Positions 1 through 7,349 of a stretch of 7,349 bases of DNA are shown here, piece by piece (position 1 is the first letter of the stretch; every line of letters begins with the position of its first letter). The translations under genes were made by a program, and so were the position numbers. Source of the DNA: Pseudomonadota bacterium (GTDB taxonomy: Bacteria > Pseudomonadota > Alphaproteobacteria > Sphingomonadales > Sphingomonadaceae); assembly GCA_963205285.1 (NCBI GenBank), contig CAUJJQ010000065.1:1-7349 (forward strand), read 5' to 3'. Below the pieces are notes generated by a model. The model had not been told where the DNA came from. It saw nothing but the letters and a program-made list of their open reading frames with translations, and searched no databases.

Positions 1-393
1 TGGTCGGCACCCGAAAATGCCGCAATTCGGGCGGCAGATGCCGCGCAATTGGCGCGCATCGACCAGATGCGCGGCCAGGGGGGTGGTCAAGGCGGCGGCG
101 CGCTCGATTATTTTCGCTGGATCAACCAGCCCGAAACGCTGCGCAATGCCATGGACATCGACCATCATGCCGCCGTGCGCGCGGCGCAAGATGGGTTGAT
201 CATACGGCGCTATGTCGGCTGGTGGGAAACGCGCAATTTGCGCATGGTGGCCAATATCCGCGCGACAATGGTTGGCCACCCCGGCGCGCGCGTCCTCAAC
301 ATCGTCGGTTCGTCGCACAAACCCTATTTCGACAGCTATCTGGGGATGATGGTTGATTGCGATATCGTCGATGCCATAACGGTTTTGCGCTGA
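1..393 (+). CDS. DUF5694-like protein, C-terminal part (5' end outside window)
   Basis: The reading frame is open from the first base to a TGA at 391-393, so the start lies outside the window; 130 residues are visible. The TTG at codon 17 is not a convincing start because in-frame coding continues upstream of it. The visible part has a Gly-rich stretch (RGQGGGQGGG), then a Trp/Arg/Asn-rich motif (WWETRNLRMVANIR) and a C-terminal GSSHKPYFDSYL motif followed by a short beta-strand-like end (DIVDAITVL). The combination of an 'ERNLR.. ANI'-like helix and a 'G(S/A)(S/G)HxPY/LL' motif is what I recall of the DUF5694 family, which is thought to be distantly related to TraB/GumN-type proteins. No biochemical role is established that I can name. 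The assignment is from motif memory, not a search. The gene lies 81 bases upstream of map on the same strand, with no terminator hairpin I can see between them. Confidence 0.6.
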   Translation, partial: WSAPENAAIRAADAAQLARIDQMRGQGGGQGGGALDYFRWINQPETLRNAMDIDHHAAVRAAQDGLIIRRYVGWWETRNLRMVANIRATMVGHPGARVLNIVGSSHKPYFDSYLGMMVDCDIVDAITVLR

Positions 394-474
394 AAACACG
401 CTTTCCTCCCGACGCCCCCCCAACGCCCCCAACGCCCCTCGCCAATATCGTGCAGCGCTGCTATGCTCGCTGCC

Positions 475-1293
475 ATGCAATATGTAATCGCTGATCAGGA
501 AAACGCGCTGCGCGACGGCACGATTAAACTCCACGGGCCCGATGGTTTTGCCGGGATGCGCCGCGCAGGCGCGCTGGCCGCCGCCGCGCTCGACATGCTT
601 GTCCCCCATGTGGTGCCCGGTGCAATCACGGCTGAGTTGGACAAATTGGTGCTCGATTTCGTGCTGGCGGCGGGCGCGGTTCCGGCGACCGTCGGCTATC
701 GCGGCTATGCCCATGCCAGCTGCATTTCGGTCAACCATGTCGTTTGCCACGGCATTCCATCCGAAAAAACGCTGAAAGATGGCGATATTGTCAATATCGA
801 CATTACTGTCATCGTCGATGGCTGGCATGGCGACACCAGCCGTATGTTCCTGATCGGTGATGTGCCCTTGCGCGCGCGGCGGCTGGTCGACGTCACTTAT
901 GAATGCCTGTTGCTCGGCATTGAACAGGCGCGCCCCGGCAAGCATGTCGGCGATATTGGTGCCGCGATTCAGGCGCATGCCGAACGGCAACGATATGGCG
1001 TGGTGCGTGATTTTTGCGGCCATGGTCTGGGCAGATTGTTCCACGACGCCCCGGAAATTGTCCATTTCGGCCGTCCCGGCACCGGGCCGGAACTGCGAGC
1101 TGGCATGTTTTTCACCATCGAACCGATGATTAATCTGGGCAAGCCGGGGGTCAAATTGCTCGACGATGGCTGGACGGCGGTGACCCGCGACCGCAGCCTG
1201 TCAGCCCAGTTTGAACATAGCATCGGCATTACCGAGGATGGGTGTGAGATTTTCACATCCAGCCCCGGCGGCTTCGACCGCCCGCCCTACTGA
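475..1293 (+). CDS. map: type I methionine aminopeptidase
   Basis: Cytosolic dinuclear-metal peptidase that removes the initiator Met from new proteins when the second residue is small. The protein is 272 residues from the ATG at 475, close to the usual bacterial MetAP length. All five metal ligands are visible (numbered from 475): Asp109 in VNIDITV, Asp120 in HGDTSR, His183 in FCGHGLGR, Glu216 in FFTIEPM and Glu247 in QFEHS. The conserved active-site His is in VVCHGIP. The C-terminal half, including LVDVTYECLLLGIEQ and LDDGWTAVTRDRSLSAQFEHS, is typical of sphingomonad MetAPs, as is the -PPY end. An alternative ATG at 463 adds four residues (MLAA). Neither start has a clear Shine-Dalgarno sequence; 475 is preferred because homologues, as I recall them, begin about this far before the RDGxIKLH motif. 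The weak hairpin 1302-1318 (TGCCC/GGGCA) after the stop lacks a T tract. Nothing is missing or odd in the protein. Confidence 0.96.
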   Translation: MQYVIADQENALRDGTIKLHGPDGFAGMRRAGALAAAALDMLVPHVVPGAITAELDKLVLDFVLAAGAVPATVGYRGYAHASCISVNHVVCHGIPSEKTLKDGDIVNIDITVIVDGWHGDTSRMFLIGDVPLRARRLVDVTYECLLLGIEQARPGKHVGDIGAAIQAHAERQRYGVVRDFCGHGLGRLFHDAPEIVHFGRPGTGPELRAGMFFTIEPMINLGKPGVKLLDDGWTAVTRDRSLSAQFEHSIGITEDGCEIFTSSPGGFDRPPY

Positions 1294-1358
1294 AGCTGGA
1301 TTGCCCCAAAAACGGGCATAGGCATGGGCTTTGCCGGATTTTGCGGCAGTTGTGCTGC

Positions 1359-1378
1359 TGCGTCGGACATTCGTCGCA
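1359..1378. promoter_or_regulatory. imperfect dyad upstream of the sigma-54 promoter
   Basis: TGCGTCG and CGTCGCA form inverted 7-base arms with one central mismatch, separated by six bases. The centre is about 58 bases upstream of the predicted glnB start. The outer TGC...GCA recalls NtrC operators, but the length (20 rather than 17 bases) and inner bases do not match the NtrC consensus, so the protein that might bind is unknown. It could be chance in GC-rich DNA. Confidence 0.25.
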
Positions 1379-1400
1379 CGCAAATCTGCGCCGGCGAGAA

Positions 1401-1416
1401 TGGCACAATATCTGCA
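1401..1416 (+). promoter_or_regulatory. sigma-54 (RpoN) -24/-12 promoter of glnB
   Basis: The sequence TGGCACAATATCTGCA matches the sigma-54 consensus TGGCAC-N5-TTGCA at every fixed position except one (C instead of T at the first base of the -12 element). The invariant GG (1402-1403) and GC (1414-1415) are exactly 10 bases apart. It points toward glnB, with an expected transcription start near 1427, about 52 bases before the ATG at 1479. Sigma-54 promoters driven by phosphorylated NtrC are the known mode of nitrogen control of glnB/glnA operons in many proteobacteria, so context and sequence agree. The activator site itself was not clearly identified. Confidence 0.8.
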
Positions 1417-1466
1417 TATCGGATTTTAGCAGCGCGCATGCCCCCCGTGCGCGACCCATTTGGTGA

Positions 1467-1817
<351 letters not shown>

Positions 1818-1830
1818 GTCATGTTACATT

Positions 1831-1858
1831 CGGCCCTGACGGCCTGCAAATGGGGCCG
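1831..1858 (+). other. hairpin after glnB with three interchangeable GGCC blocks
   Basis: CGGCCC (1831-1836) can pair with GGGCCG (1853-1858) over a 16-base loop. The self-complementary block GGCC occurs three times, at 1832-1835, 1841-1844 and 1854-1857, so several exclusive stems are possible. GCAAA (1846-1850) can also pair with TTTGC (1859-1863). There is only a TTT after the main stem, so this is at best a weak terminator; it may instead limit or modulate read-through from glnB into glnA, or protect the glnB mRNA end. Confidence 0.35.
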
Positions 1859-1902
1859 TTTGCGCGTCCCGGTGCACACAAGCACGCTGCGCTCCGGTTC
1901 GC

Positions 1903-1918
1903 AAAATGCCCGCATTTT
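1903..1918. promoter_or_regulatory. perfect inverted repeat upstream of glnA
   Basis: AAAATGC and GCATTTT form perfect 7-base arms around a CC centre, extendable by CG/CG on the outside if one base bulges. It lies about 85 bases before the glnA start, just upstream of an AT-rich stretch (1936-1980) that could hold a promoter (a TAAAAT at 1940-1945 resembles a -10 element, but no good -35 is present). The location suits an operator for glnA's own transcription, or a small transcript hairpin. No regulator can be named. Confidence 0.35.
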
Positions 1919-1994
1919 CGTCACGTCATCCCCCAAATGTAAAATAACCTAATCCCGCCTGAAATTACTCCAATACAATAAGGACGTTCGCACC

Positions 1995-3407
1995 ATGGCT
2001 AATAGCCCCAAAGACATTCTGAACCTGATCGCCGAGAATGAGGTGGAGTGGGTTGACCTGCGTTTCACCGACCCAAAGGGCAAGTGGCAGCATCTGACGA
2101 TGACCGCCGCGCTGATCGACGAAGACCAGCTCGAAGACGGGTTGATGTTTGATGGTTCATCGATCGAAGGGTGGAAGGCGATCAACGAATCGGACATGAT
2201 CCTGAAACCCGACCTCGACGCGGTGCACCTCGACCCGTTCAGCGCGACGCCGATGCTCGTCATTTTCTGCGATATCGTCGAACCATCGACGGGCGAACTT
2301 TACGCGCGTGACCCGCGATCGACCGCCAAGCGCGCCGAAGCCTATGTGCAGGCGAGCGGCATTGCCGACACCATCTATGTCGGCCCCGAAGCCGAATTCT
2401 TCATGTTCGACGATGTCCGTTTTGAAAATGGCTATGCCGCGTCGGGTTACAGCATCGATGATATCGAACTGCCGACCAATAGCGCGCGCCAATATGAAGG
2501 GGGCAATCTGGCTCACCGGCCGCGCGCCAAGGGTGGTTATTTCCCCGTCGCCCCGGTGGACAGCGCGGTCGATATTCGCGCCGAAATGGTTTCGACGATG
2601 CGCGAAATGGGGCTCAACATGGACAAGCACCACCATGAAGTGGCCGCTGCCCAGCATGAATTGGGCCTGACCTTCGATACGTTGGTCAAGACCGCCGACA
2701 ATATGCAGATTTACAAATATGTCGTCCATCAGGTCGCGCAAGCCTATGGCAAGACGGCAACCTTCATGCCCAAGCCGATTAAGGATGATAATGGCAGCGG
2801 CATGCACACCCACATGTCGCTGTGGGCAAAGGGCAACCCGCTGTTTGCTGGCAATGGCTATGCCGGATTGTCGGACACCTGCCTCTATTTCATTGGCGGC
2901 GTTATCAAACATGCCAAGGCATTGAACGCCTTCACCAACCCGTCGACCAACAGCTACAAGCGGCTGGTGCCGGGTTTTGAGGCGCCGGTGCTGCTGGCAT
3001 ATTCCAGCCGCAACCGTTCGGCGTCCTGCCGTATTCCCTATGGCGCGGGGGCCAAGGCCAAGCGCGTGGAATTCCGTTTCCCCGACGCGATGGCCAACCC
3101 CTATCTCGCCTATGCGGCCTTGTTGATGGCGGGCCTCGACGGGATTGAAAACCGCATCCACCCCGGTGATGCGATGGACAAGAATCTTTATGATCTGCCG
3201 CCCGAGGAATTAAAGGATGTGCCGACCGTTTGCGGTTCGCTGCGCGAAGCATTGGAGGCGCTCAGCGCCGACCATCAATTCCTGCTCAAAGGCGATGTAT
3301 TCTCCAAGGATCAGATTGACGCCTATGTCGAACTGAAATGGGCCGAGGTTTATCGCTGGGAAATGGCACCCAGCCCGGTTGAATTTGACATGTATTACAG
3401 CGCCTGA
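1995..3407 (+). CDS. glnA: glutamine synthetase, type I
   Basis: Dodecameric cytosolic enzyme that makes glutamine from glutamate, ammonium and ATP; the main ammonium-assimilation step. At 470 residues it is the normal GSI length. Motifs in order: DGSSIEGW (53-60); GPEAEFF with metal ligands Glu132 and Glu134; NMDKHHHEV with Glu215, then Glu222; the ATP-binding stretch [18 protein letters not shown] (260-277) with His271; [17 protein letters not shown] (315-331) with the Glu329 flap residue; [12 protein letters not shown] (337-348); and RVEFRFPD with Glu359. NLYDLPPEE places Tyr399 at the adenylylation site, so this is the GlnE-regulated GSI-beta class. An AAGGA at 1980-1984, ten bases before the ATG, supports the start. 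It follows glnB; transcription probably comes both from the glnB sigma-54 promoter and from a local promoter in the gap. An intrinsic terminator follows the stop. No anomaly was seen. Confidence 0.98.
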
Positions 3408-3430
3408 TCGCACAAAAACGCCAAAAACGC

Positions 3431-3464
3431 GGGCGCGGGCAGAGATGCTTGCGCCCCATTTTTT
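3431..3464 (+). terminator. intrinsic terminator of glnA
   Basis: Bases 3431-3441 pair with 3446-3456 in an 11-base stem (two G-T wobbles in the middle) closed by a GAGA tetraloop of the GNRA type. The stem is followed by CCA and a run of six T (3459-3464). It begins 24 bases after the glnA stop and should separate the nitrogen operon from the peptidase gene. Confidence 0.88.
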
Positions 3465-3531
3465 GGCCTATCCCAATATCATGACGTCAATTTTGCTTGC
3501 GGGCGGGCGCGCTGCGCCATAGCCTTGGCCG

Positions 3532-4848
3532 ATGATGAACTGGCTCCGCGCAACTGCGCTCTTCACCCTTTTGGCAATATCGAACAGCGCCTATGCCGCC
3601 GCGTCGCCCGCCGAAACGCGCATGGCCCGCTATGTCGCCACTGACCGCCCCTATGGCGAAGCGCTGCTCGAACGGCTGGTCAATCAAAATAGCGGGACGC
3701 TCAACAACGAAGGGGTACGGATTGTCGGGCAGATGATGCGCGCCGAGTTGGAGGGGCTGGGTTTCACCGTCGAATGGATTGATGGCACGCCGTTCAACCG
3801 CGCCGGACATATTATCGCAACCCATGTTGGCAATGGACGCGGCAAACGCGTGCTGATGATCGGCCATCTCGACACCGTGTTTGAGGCTGATTCCCCTTTT
3901 CAACGCTACAGCGCGGCGGGCAATATCGCGACGGGGCCGGGCGTTGGCGATGACAAGGGCGGTCTGGTCGTCATCATCGGCATTTTGCGCGCGATGCGGG
4001 ATGCCGGCACGCTGGCCAATGCCGATATAAAGGTGGTGCTGACCGGCGATGAAGAACGCATGGGATCGCCGGTTTCGCTGTCGCGTGGTGATCTGGTCGC
4101 GGCGGCGCAATGGGCCGATGTCGCGCTGGAATATGAAAATCTGGTGCGCGACGCGACCCATGATTATGGCACCATCGCCCGCCGTTCGTCGAGCAATTGG
4201 CAAATCAATATCCATAGCGAAACCGGCCATAGCAGCGGGATTTTTAGCGACGGCGTCGGCTATGGTGCGATTTATGAAATGGCGCGGATTTTGGACAGCT
4301 TTCGCCGCGAACTGCGCGAACCCAATTTAACCTACAACGTATCATTGGTTGCAGGGGGCACGCCTGCGCAATTTGATACGACGCTCGAACGCGCCGATGG
4401 GCGCGGCAAGACCAACATCATCCCCGCCGATGCGGTGGCGCGCGGTGATTTGCGCAGCCTGACCGTTGAACAGGATGCCCGCGTGCGCGCACGGATGACC
4501 GAAATCGTCGCCGCGCACCTGCCGGGCACGAGCGGGGAGATTGTCTTTGACGATGGCTACCCGCCCATGTCCCCGACCGCGGGTAATCAGGCGCTGCTCG
4601 ACCAGCTCAACCTGGTCAATCGGGATATGCGCTTGGCCGAAATGCCCGCACTGCCACCCATTCGGCGCGGTGCGGCGGATTCGGGCTTTGCCGCCCCCTA
4701 TGTCGATACGTTGGGCGGGCTTGGCCCATCCGCCGATGGCAGCCATGCGGTGGGCGAAACGCTGGAACTCGACACGATACCGCTGATGGCGCTGCGTTCG
4801 GCGGTGCTGATCACCCGCCTGTCGCGCCAACCACGTCTTGTGCGCTGA
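3532..4848 (+). CDS. exported M20-family metallopeptidase (glutamate carboxypeptidase-like)
   Basis: Zinc hydrolase of the M20 family, predicted periplasmic. The 438-residue protein begins with a Sec signal peptide: a short charged start (MMNWLR), a hydrophobic core (ATALFTLLAI) and an AYA site giving cleavage after Ala22. The M20 active-site series is complete: His112 and Asp114 in GHLDTV, bridging Asp140 in GPGVGDDKGG, general base Glu174 and ligand Glu175 in TGDEERMGS, Glu200 in ALEYEN, and His405 in DGSHAVGE. The order is a catalytic half (about 30-210), a dimerisation insert (about 215-330), then the rest of the catalytic half. The GPGVGDDKGG pattern resembles carboxypeptidase G2, which releases C-terminal glutamate, but substrate cannot be read from sequence; a dipeptidase or N-acyl-amino-acid hydrolase is also possible. 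Either ATG (3532 or 3535) could start; no Shine-Dalgarno sequence is evident. It is separated from glnA by a terminator, so it is probably transcribed on its own. Confidence 0.9.
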   Translation: MMNWLRATALFTLLAISNSAYAAASPAETRMARYVATDRPYGEALLERLVNQNSGTLNNEGVRIVGQMMRAELEGLGFTVEWIDGTPFNRAGHIIATHVGNGRGKRVLMIGHLDTVFEADSPFQRYSAAGNIATGPGVGDDKGGLVVIIGILRAMRDAGTLANADIKVVLTGDEERMGSPVSLSRGDLVAAAQWADVALEYENLVRDATHDYGTIARRSSSNWQINIHSETGHSSGIFSDGVGYGAIYEMARILDSFRRELREPNLTYNVSLVAGGTPAQFDTTLERADGRGKTNIIPADAVARGDLRSLTVEQDARVRARMTEIVAAHLPGTSGEIVFDDGYPPMSPTAGNQALLDQLNLVNRDMRLAEMPALPPIRRGAADSGFAAPYVDTLGGLGPSADGSHAVGETLELDTIPLMALRSAVLITRLSRQPRLVR

Positions 4849-4872
4849 AATATCGGCCATTTTGCGTGAAAA

Positions 4873-4891
4873 GGGTTGCACCTCGCAACCC
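4873..4891. terminator. perfect hairpin between the peptidase and aldehyde dehydrogenase genes
   Basis: GGGTTGC and GCAACCC form a perfect 7-base stem with a five-base loop, 24 bases after the peptidase stop. It has no T run downstream on the plus strand; the AAAA immediately before it would give a TTTT tail only for minus-strand transcription. A second, weaker stem (TGCCGC 4894-4899 with GTGGCA 4905-4910) follows at once. The pair may mark the peptidase mRNA 3' end or form part of the aldehyde dehydrogenase leader. Confidence 0.4.
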
Positions 4892-4930
4892 ATTGCCGCA
4901 CTTTGTGGCATCCAGAATCAGGTTTTTGAC

Positions 4931-4935
4931 GGGAG
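4931..4935 (+). promoter_or_regulatory. ribosome binding site of the aldehyde dehydrogenase gene
   Basis: GGGAG lies six bases before the ATG at 4942, a good spacing. It lies only one base before the out-of-frame ATG at 4937, which is too close for efficient use, so it supports the 4942 start. Confidence 0.6.
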
Positions 4936-4941
4936 TATGTG

Positions 4942-6360
4942 ATGGGCGATTATCTGCGACATTATATCGGCGGCCAATGGGTCGATAGCATCGGCGGCAG
5001 CGCCCATGACGTCATCAGCCCCTCAACCGAGGAAGCGTGCAGCCGCGTGGTTTATGGCACCAGCGCGGATGTCGATGCCGCGGTTGCCGCCGCGCGCGCC
5101 GCATTTGACAGCTTCTCGCAAACCAGCCGCGAAGAACGGCTGGCGCTGATGGGCCGGATTGTCGAGGAATATAAAAAGCGTGCGCCTGACCTTGGTCGAT
5201 CGATGGCAGAGGAAATGGGCGCGCCGGTCAGCTTCGCGATGACGGCACAGGTTGGCGCGGGAATGGGCGGCTTTTTGGGCACGATGGAGGCGCTCAAAAA
5301 CTTTGAATTCAGCGAAAATCATGGTGCCTACAGCACCCATTATGAAGCGATTGGCGTGGTCGGCATGATTACGCCATGGAACTGGCCCCTGAACCAGATC
5401 GCGCTCAAGGTTGCGCCCGCTTTGGCCGCGGGCAACACTATGGTGCTCAAACCATCCGAAGAATGTCCGGGTAATGCGGTTATTTTTGCCGAGATTTTGG
5501 ACGCAGCGGGCGTGCCGGCTGGCGTCTTCAACCTCGTCCTTGGGGATGGGCCGGGGGTCGGTGCCGCAATTTCCGCGCACGGCGATGTCGAGATGGTGAG
5601 CTTTACCGGTTCGACGCGTGCGGGCATCCTCGTCGCCAAAGCCGCTGCCGACACAGTAAAGCGCGTCCACCAGGAATTGGGCGGCAAATCCCCCAATCTG
5701 GTGCTGCCCGATGCCGATTTTGCCGCGCATCTGGCCCCGACCGCGATGGGCCCGCTGGTCAACACCGGGCAAAGCTGCATCGCGCCGACGCGCATTTTGG
5801 TGCCGCGCGAACGCGAAGCCGAAGCCGCCGGTTTTCTGGCGGCTATGTATGGCGCAACCCCGGTTGGCGACCCGCTGAGCGAAGGGGGGCATCTGGGGCC
5901 GGTGGTCAACAAGGCGCAATATGACAAGATTCGCAGCCTCATCCAGTCCGCGATTGATGAAGGGGCAAAGCTCGAATGTGGGGGCACTGACCTGCCCGCC
6001 AACGTCAATCGTGGCTATTATATCCAGCCAACCGTCTTTTCCGGCGTCACCCCCGACATGCGCATCGCGCAGGAGGAGATTTTTGGCCCGGTCGCGACCG
6101 TCATGGCCTATGATAATCTGGAACAGGGGATCGAGATTGCCAATGACACCGCCTATGGCCTGTCGGCGGTGATTTCGGGTGATCCGGCCAAGGCAGCCGA
6201 CATTGCGCCGCGCCTGCGCGCCGGGATGGTTGCGGTCAACAATTGGGGCCCGGCGCCCGGCGCCCCCTTTGGCGGCTATAAGCAATCCGGCAATGGCCGC
6301 GAAGGAGGTCTCCACGGCCTCAAAGACTTTATGGAAGTAAAGTCGATTTCGGGTCTCTGA
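4942..6360 (+). CDS. aldehyde dehydrogenase family protein (NAD(P)-dependent)
   Basis: Oxidises an aldehyde to a carboxylic acid with NAD(P)+; cytosolic, as there is no signal peptide. The 472 residues match the ALDH superfamily length. Visible features are TPWNWP with Asn147, KPSEECP with coenzyme-binding Lys170, the Rossmann-loop FTGSTRAG (221-228), general base Glu245 in HQELGGKSPN, the catalytic Cys279 in NTGQSCIAPTR, EEIFGPV with Glu379, and the C-terminal PFGGYKQSGNGREGG. The FTGSTRAG, GQSCIAPTR and C-terminal motifs place it among broad-specificity aldehyde dehydrogenases; the natural substrate cannot be told and no pathway partner is nearby. The start is the ATG at 4942, six bases after GGGAG (4931-4935). 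An in-frame GTG at 4939 would add one residue. An out-of-frame ATG at 4937-4939 is immediately followed by TGA, making a start-stop pair just ahead of the true start. A strong terminator follows. Confidence 0.93.
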   Translation: MGDYLRHYIGGQWVDSIGGSAHDVISPSTEEACSRVVYGTSADVDAAVAAARAAFDSFSQTSREERLALMGRIVEEYKKRAPDLGRSMAEEMGAPVSFAMTAQVGAGMGGFLGTMEALKNFEFSENHGAYSTHYEAIGVVGMITPWNWPLNQIALKVAPALAAGNTMVLKPSEECPGNAVIFAEILDAAGVPAGVFNLVLGDGPGVGAAISAHGDVEMVSFTGSTRAGILVAKAAADTVKRVHQELGGKSPNLVLPDADFAAHLAPTAMGPLVNTGQSCIAPTRILVPREREAEAAGFLAAMYGATPVGDPLSEGGHLGPVVNKAQYDKIRSLIQSAIDEGAKLECGGTDLPANVNRGYYIQPTVFSGVTPDMRIAQEEIFGPVATVMAYDNLEQGIEIANDTAYGLSAVISGDPAKAADIAPRLRAGMVAVNNWGPAPGAPFGGYKQSGNGREGGLHGLKDFMEVKSISGL

Positions 6361-6391
6361 CGCCGCATATCCACTTTCCAACCAGCAAGAC

Positions 6392-6419
6392 GGGGGCGGC
6401 CAAAACCGCCCCCCTTTTT
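6392..6419 (+). terminator. intrinsic terminator between convergent genes
   Basis: GGGGGCGG (6392-6399) pairs perfectly with CCGCCCCC (6406-6413) across a six-base loop and is followed by C and TTTTT (6415-6419). It starts 32 bases after the aldehyde dehydrogenase stop and ends one base before the stop codon of the opposing gene. For the minus strand the stem is the same but the tail is not a clean T run (GTCTTG), so it should work well for the aldehyde dehydrogenase and less well, if at all, for the metW-bearing transcript. Confidence 0.92.
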
Positions 6420-6420
6420 G

Positions 6421-7349
6421 CTATTTGCCGTTCCGACGGAGCAGAAAAATACCATGGTCGGCGAATAAATTGGCCGCCGCCGCGCTGCGCCGCCGCTCCC
6501 CGCTCAAGAACCATTGCCCGTCAATCGCAATATCGCGTTCGGCGAGCAGGCTGCGGAAATCGTCAATCGTCACATGGTGGATATTGGGCGTGTCATACCA
6601 GCGTGCCGGCAATTGCCGCGTCACCGGCATCCGTCCACCAAAGGCGAGCGCGAGGCGGATCCGCCATTGGGCAAAATTGGGAAAAGAAACAAAGGCTTGG
6701 CGCGCAATGCGCAGCAATTGTTCCACTACAAGGTCTGGCCGCATCGTCGTCTGCAATGTCTGACTGAGAATGGCGTAATCGAACGCGGCATCGGGATAAT
6801 CGGCAAGATCGCTATCGGCATCGCCCTGAATCACCGACAGCCCGCGCGCCACACAGGCCGACACGTTGGCAGGGTCAATTTCCAGCCCGCGCGCGTCCAC
6901 CCCCTTTGCGCTGCGCAAATGGTGGAGCAGCGCGCCATCGCCGCAGCCGACGTCAAGAACACGGCTGCCCGCGCGCACCGCATCAGCGATTGTGACCGCC
7001 GGTAAGCGAAGCGAGTGGGGCAGTCCGTCCGCTGCGATCGAGCCCGGGCCTGTCGAGCCCATCGAGCCGCCGAGCACGTTCGAGCAAATGACGAAGAAGC
7101 GGTTGGTGTCGATTGGGCGTCCTGGCCCGACGATCCGCGGCCACCAAGCGGGGCGGCCGGTGATTGGGTTTGGGCTCGCCACGAATTGATCGCCCGTCAG
7201 CGAATGACAGACGAGAACAGCGTTGCTGCGTTCCGCGTTCAGTGACCCATGGGTTTCAAACGCCACTGTGAGCGGCGCCAAAGCTTCGCCGCTCGAAAGC
7301 TGCAATGGCTTCGAGACGTCAAAGACGAGCGAACGTACGCCGCCTGCTG
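6421..7349 (-). CDS. metW: chimeric MetX(N-terminal fragment)-MetW protein, partial at 5' end
   Basis: One uninterrupted minus-strand frame ends at TAG (6423-6421) and remains open to the right edge, so the true start is outside the window; 308 residues are visible. The TTG at 7305 is not the start, because upstream codons still read as MetX (VFDVSKPLQL). The first part is the N-terminus of homoserine O-acetyltransferase MetX: LVCHSLTGDQ, WWPRIVGPGRPIDTNRFFVICSNVLGG and GSMGSTGP. The frame then enters MetW at or near IADAVRAGSRVLD (6970-6990). MetW is a SAM-binding class I methyltransferase-like protein normally encoded directly after metX in methionine biosynthesis. Its motifs are intact: VLDVGCGDGALL (SAM-binding motif I), LEIDPANV, GDADSDLADYPD, FDYAILSQTLQ, FVSFPNFAQWR, MPVTRQLP and WYDTPNIHHVTIDDF. 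The MetW part could fold and act; the MetX part cannot catalyse. MetW's first 15 or so residues seem replaced. An assembly misjoin is the main alternative to a real fusion. Confidence 0.88.
   Translation of the reverse strand, partial: AGGVRSLVFDVSKPLQLSSGEALAPLTVAFETHGSLNAERSNAVLVCHSLTGDQFVASPNPITGRPAWWPRIVGPGRPIDTNRFFVICSNVLGGSMGSTGPGSIAADGLPHSLRLPAVTIADAVRAGSRVLDVGCGDGALLHHLRSAKGVDARGLEIDPANVSACVARGLSVIQGDADSDLADYPDAAFDYAILSQTLQTTMRPDLVVEQLLRIARQAFVSFPNFAQWRIRLALAFGGRMPVTRQLPARWYDTPNIHHVTIDDFRSLLAERDIAIDGQWFLSGERRRSAAAANLFADHGIFLLRRNGK
6973..7349 (-). pseudogene. metX: truncated homoserine O-acetyltransferase (MetX) remnant
   Basis: This is the MetX-derived segment of the chimeric frame, about 125 visible residues. 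It covers the family's first strands and the GGSMGSTGP loop and stops around VTIADAV, where full MetX normally continues with RAQ and roughly 250 more residues. The nucleophile Ser (in a G-x-S-x-G elbow downstream of this point) and the Asp and His of the alpha/beta-hydrolase triad all lie in the missing part, so acetylation of homoserine by this product is not possible. Codon choice here differs from the MetW part (see findings). The boundary is approximate because both parents may share sequence at the join. Confidence 0.75.

Follow-up and report, generated by a model that had tools for sequence, protein, structure and literature searches.

An in-frame MetX-MetW reading frame at the end of a metagenome contig is very probably a chimeric join between two bacterial lineages

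An excerpt of PMC7299287 describes chimeric contigs and traces them to k-mers that different genomes have in common and that connect their assembly graphs. The genes metX and metW are a second system against which the present locus has to be read. To describe their native arrangement, we compared 31 loci from the genus of the assembled bacterium, namely the 29 best loci of a same-genus search (80 genomes including its own, with matches in 79) together with G018 and G010. It was observed that metX preceded metW in all 31 loci and was closed by a stop codon of its own ahead of the metW match. The distance was 24-42 nt in 28 loci and about 457 nt in three, and the two genes lay in different frames in 30 of the 31. 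In the genome G059, of the same genus, metX and metW overlapped by ATGA, and the genes before metX were ones that we take from their sequences to be tyrA-like and hisC-like. The statement of the original prediction that MetX and MetW are normally separate products of adjacent genes thus held at each of the 31 genus loci compared.

The window analysed here, 7349 bp, is a complete contig (C65) from an assembly of 1,909,247 bases in 303 contigs, which is 76.45% complete. A minus-strand frame at window 7347-6421, with 308 codons and a stop, was open at the contig end. Residues 4-135 of this frame matched MetX models and residues 119-303 matched the MetW equivalog TIGR02081 (NCBIfam), and Pfam returned only MetW and general methyltransferase models. 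The original prediction had described such an in-frame passage from MetX to MetW, giving no strand, and had located the switch within 6960-7000; both points were borne out, and the switch was placed at 6970-6991. The features of the window are as follows.

1..6420, no strand assigned: native backbone, colinear with G059
6421..6969, minus strand: native metW without its first codons, from the TIGR02081 score and 94.7% identity to the MetW of G059
6970..6990, minus strand: the join, 21 nt coding for IADAVRA, from the DNA alignment limits and the occurrence of the peptide
6991..7349, minus strand: foreign MetX N-terminal piece of about 119 codons with no native start seen, from 92% identity to the Hyphomonadaceae locus L039 and from the tree

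The MetW half scored 229.8 bits with TIGR02081, above the cut-off of 189.5, indicating that it is an ordinary MetW member. Its closest relative in the same-genus search was the MetW of G059 (93-95% identical), and the 30 other genus loci carried MetW proteins 64-71% identical to that of the window. The 201-aa MetW of G059 begins MSGMLLRPDLAV-IADAVRA, and with this protein as the reference 12 MetW residues were absent from the frame. The remainder of the window carries genes that, judged from their sequences, resemble map, glnB, glnA, an M20 peptidase and an aldehyde dehydrogenase. The DNA of this backbone was 88% identical to contig C10 of G059 over 1990-6418 and 83% identical over 85-1816. 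The colinear alignment with G059 started at window 6991 and went leftward, with 5038 aligned columns at 87.3% followed by 1757 at 82.6%, and the colinearity ended to the right of 6991. The locus therefore resembles the separate genus pairs in its ordinary MetW half and in the order metX to metW, but differs from them in that their metX stops before metW, so that two proteins result.

The MetX half scored 148 bits with PRK00175 (cut-off 331) and 135 bits with TIGR01392 (cut-off 500), both well below the cut-offs. The PRK00175 match stopped at model position 142 of 381 and the Ser-Asp-His triad was absent, as expected from the earlier claim that the MetX triad lies beyond the cut. Relative to the 373-aa donor-type MetX P0122, about 250 residues were absent. 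The original estimate of some 250 MetX residues and the first residues of MetW missing was thus accurate.

The affinity of the MetX piece was quite different from that of MetW. Over 119 residues, the piece was 92% identical to L039 (Hyphomonadaceae, JAEUMT010000021.1), and a search with residues 1-112 gave 120 listed proteins, with P0122 at the highest identity (92%) and with names that included Terricaulis, Vitreimonas and Hyphomonadaceae. In contrast, the native MetX proteins at the 31 genus loci were only 50.9-62.4% identical to the piece, that of G059 being 57.7% identical. In a tree of 112 rows, which was built on few columns with a rough bootstrap, the piece paired with L039 with support 100/96, and all 31 genus rows formed another branch with two Sphingomonadaceae rows (100/89). 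The assignment of the window's backbone to the Sphingomonadaceae is based on this tree and on names among the hits of the full-frame protein search. The MetW of L039 itself was 37% identical to that of the window. Neither donor nor recipient therefore provides both halves, since the donor-side MetW stands at 37% and the genus MetX at 51-62%. Base composition did not clearly separate the two sides, with GC and GC3 of 0.639 and 0.723 in the MetX piece vs 0.612 and 0.677 in metW. Collectively, the nearest organism to the left of the join was the same-genus G059 and that to the right was of the Hyphomonadaceae, and the foreign stretch to the right measured 358 nt and reached the contig end.

The DNA alignment limits delineated the join itself. 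The alignment with the Hyphomonadaceae-type metX loci collapsed after window 6970, and that with G059 DNA started at 6991. The peptide IADAVRA was present at the join position in the MetW of G059 and of P0001, the latter being the only one of 120 listed MetW proteins to contain it. On the donor side, IADAVRAQ was found in two of 120 listed donor-type MetX proteins (P0135 and P0181) and in none of the 80 fetched loci L039-L118. The searches did not recover the exact donor strain. In eight donor-clade loci, the longest DNA word in common with the start of G059 metW was 12 nt; we infer that the true donor strain would carry the 21-nt common word. A length of 21 is a usual smallest word length of assemblers. 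Because the shared peptide sets the frame of both genes, the frame could be kept without selection.

The expected position of the native metX was identified with a second contig of the draft (G000:C78, 10,022 bp). C78 tracked G059 as far as L035:6775, where 8 nt of C78 were left, and C65 took up the colinearity again at L035:9663. C78 ends in the tyrA-like gene, and the gap of 2.9 kb to C65 corresponds to the rest of this gene, the hisC-like gene and metX. The 2.9-kb interval of G059 that holds the native metX had no match in the draft, and searches of the draft for another metX and for metA found none. The original prediction had proposed looking for an intact metX or metA in the same genome; none was recovered, but this decides nothing, because the draft is 76% complete and the native metX falls in the gap. 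Most likely, the native metX sits in the 2.9-kb gap between C78 and C65, and it is beside such a gap that one would expect C65 to be falsely extended.

A search of protein databases for the same join, also proposed originally, was performed with the full frame against about 5.8 billion proteins; the 8000 candidates sharing most words with it were scored and the best 120 were listed. None of these 120 spanned the join; coverage of the query did not exceed 64%, and the longest of the proteins had 205 aa. When the MetX half was searched alone, a MetW domain appeared in the Pfam column of none of the 120 proteins listed. G018 and G010, whose MetW matches covered the query from residues 64 and 80 onward, were considered as natural fusions and were rejected, both having separate metX and metW genes (L123 and L124).

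One protein from these searches, P0137, came from a 1969-bp metagenome contig and combined an N-terminal MetX piece, of the type seen here, with an NAD+ synthase in one frame. It resembles the present frame in that a MetX N-terminal piece is read in frame with an unrelated protein, in one member and on one short contig, and differs from it in having NAD+ synthase as the partner. P0137 is probably another, independent chimera.

With high confidence, we interpret the MetX-MetW frame as a chimeric contig end. A metagenome assembler would have joined the metW of the assembled bacterium to a metX piece of a Hyphomonadaceae-type bacterium by passing through a short DNA word common to both genomes. 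In both genes such a word would be read in one frame and yield one and the same peptide, which would keep the frame, and no fusion protein would be made. The original prediction had offered two readings, a misassembly near a contig end and a cell-made MetW with a MetX-derived extension, and only the former was upheld. Four observations speak for it: the change of taxonomic affinity at the join, a contig end 358 nt further on, the native metX missing alongside and the absence of the join from the searches. The estimated contamination of the draft was low (0.99%), which was counted against a chimera, as were the longest common word of 12 nt and the similar base composition of the two sides. The 308-aa frame is real as sequence but very likely not a gene.

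The main rival is a real fusion by horizontal transfer, in which a Hyphomonadaceae-type metX fragment would have recombined into the 5' end of metW via a short shared stretch, replacing the native metX, with a MetX-MetW protein being made. In its favour, the frame is open and in register, and no other metX or metA was found in the draft. It is nevertheless very improbable, given that the foreign stretch is just 358 nt and reaches the contig end, and that neither the remainder of the native tyrA-like gene nor the hisC-like gene is present there, as an assembly gap would lead one to expect. In addition, the join occurred at none of the 31 genus loci and in none of the 120 listed proteins, and the product would have no MetX active site and metW no start of its own. 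A real fusion would be recognized by both halves coming from one genome or by recurrence in relatives, and neither was found.

The cell-made protein could also have come from a deletion within a native metX-metW pair that removed about 250 codons of MetX together with the first ones of MetW and left the frame intact; the constant order of the two genes at all 31 genus loci speaks for this. The MetX remnant would then be expected at about 95% identity to G059, like MetW. Instead it was 57.7% identical to G059 (51-62% across the 31 genus relatives) and yet 92% identical to another family, the Hyphomonadaceae; this identity contrast ruled out the deletion, to which we assign next to no probability. 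A chimera made in the wet lab, by template switching during PCR or multiple-displacement amplification and not by the assembler, would produce an identical change of affinity where a short stretch is shared. A dead end in the assembly graph is a better fit to the contig end with its neighbouring gap, and chimeric molecules usually make up a small minority beside the true ones; a wet-lab origin is accordingly a slight outside chance.

As a probable chimeric contig end, the locus is like the inter-genome chimeric contigs outlined in the excerpt of PMC7299287 in that the sequence of two organisms is joined at a short stretch and at a contig end. Unlike the usual cases, the two genes at the false join belong to one pathway and the frame is kept. 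What makes it unusually deceptive is IADAVRA, which can occur at this position in both families. Unchecked, the frame could be annotated as a fused MetX-MetW protein, pointing to a novel regulation of methionine synthesis or to an auxotrophy. The trap is a more general one, in that functionally linked neighbour genes may be falsely fused in frame when a short peptide is common to both.

The donor-side MetX proteins had a property of their own. In the 15 unbroken donor-clade loci (L039-L053), the position of the MetX nucleophile Ser was occupied by Gly in 14 and by Glu in L048, and the aligned Asp and His positions were kept in all 15. The Ser position was defined by the GGSxGG of G059 and ten Ser-bearing relatives, where the donor clade mostly reads G[P/A]GxGG; P0122, for example, reads GPGMGG where the solved homoserine O-acetyltransferases 2pl5 and 2b61 read GGSMGG and GGSFGG. 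Among the 120 listed proteins P0121-P0240, the Ser was absent in 109 and present in eight, and three were without the GGMQ motif used to locate it. By a simple pairwise NG86 estimate with dS near 1, the median dN/dS was 0.174 for the Ser-less metX (105 pairs) vs 0.157 for the ten Ser-bearing relatives (45 pairs). These low values suggest that purifying selection maintains the Ser-less metX. The MetW beside it was diverged in the two loci checked (L039:4134-4745 and L043:4125-4736), with 144 and 146 bits against the cut-off of 189.5, and the MetW of one Ser-bearing relative scored 248 bits.

A second MetX, of the PRK08775 type, was detected in 14 of the 17 Ser-less genomes G080-G096 (for example at L148, L151, L153 and L154). 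It scored 227-331 bits in 12 of them and was in pieces in G095 and G096, and four of the 14 passed the curated cut-off of 296. No such MetX was found in 18 Ser-bearing control genomes (best match 77-122 bits), which were hand-picked from 63 other loci (L056-L118) as the first ten in match order and eight further down; as genome completeness was not given, a gene missing from a Ser-less or control genome is weak evidence. Three Ser-less genomes (G081, G091 and G093) also gave no PRK08775-type MetX, and a straightforward replacement becomes less likely for that reason. MetA was found in none of the 20 genomes searched, a set that includes the controls G097-G099. In an excerpt of PMC4239095, metA is named as a regulon member in some Hyphomonadaceae. 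A narrow literature search returned work on mycobacterial MetX and was too narrow for the Ser-less clade to be called unpublished.

We give about even chances to the following course of events, in which the MetX of the donor lineage, once a PRK08775-type MetX had assumed the acylation of homoserine, lost its nucleophile Ser and was conserved as a MetX-like protein that partners a diverged MetW. If true, this would be a clade-wide conversion of an enzyme to a non-enzyme caught beside its old operon mate. The Ser-less MetX clade, with the diverged MetW next to it, could be useful for testing the role of MetW towards MetX, and may outweigh the chimera in importance. At two further loci, L054 and L055, the Ser-less metX was broken by a frame change, and one of these is recorded as a complete genome; both were excluded from the dN/dS estimate and from the count of 15 Ser-less loci and were included among the 17 Ser-less genomes.
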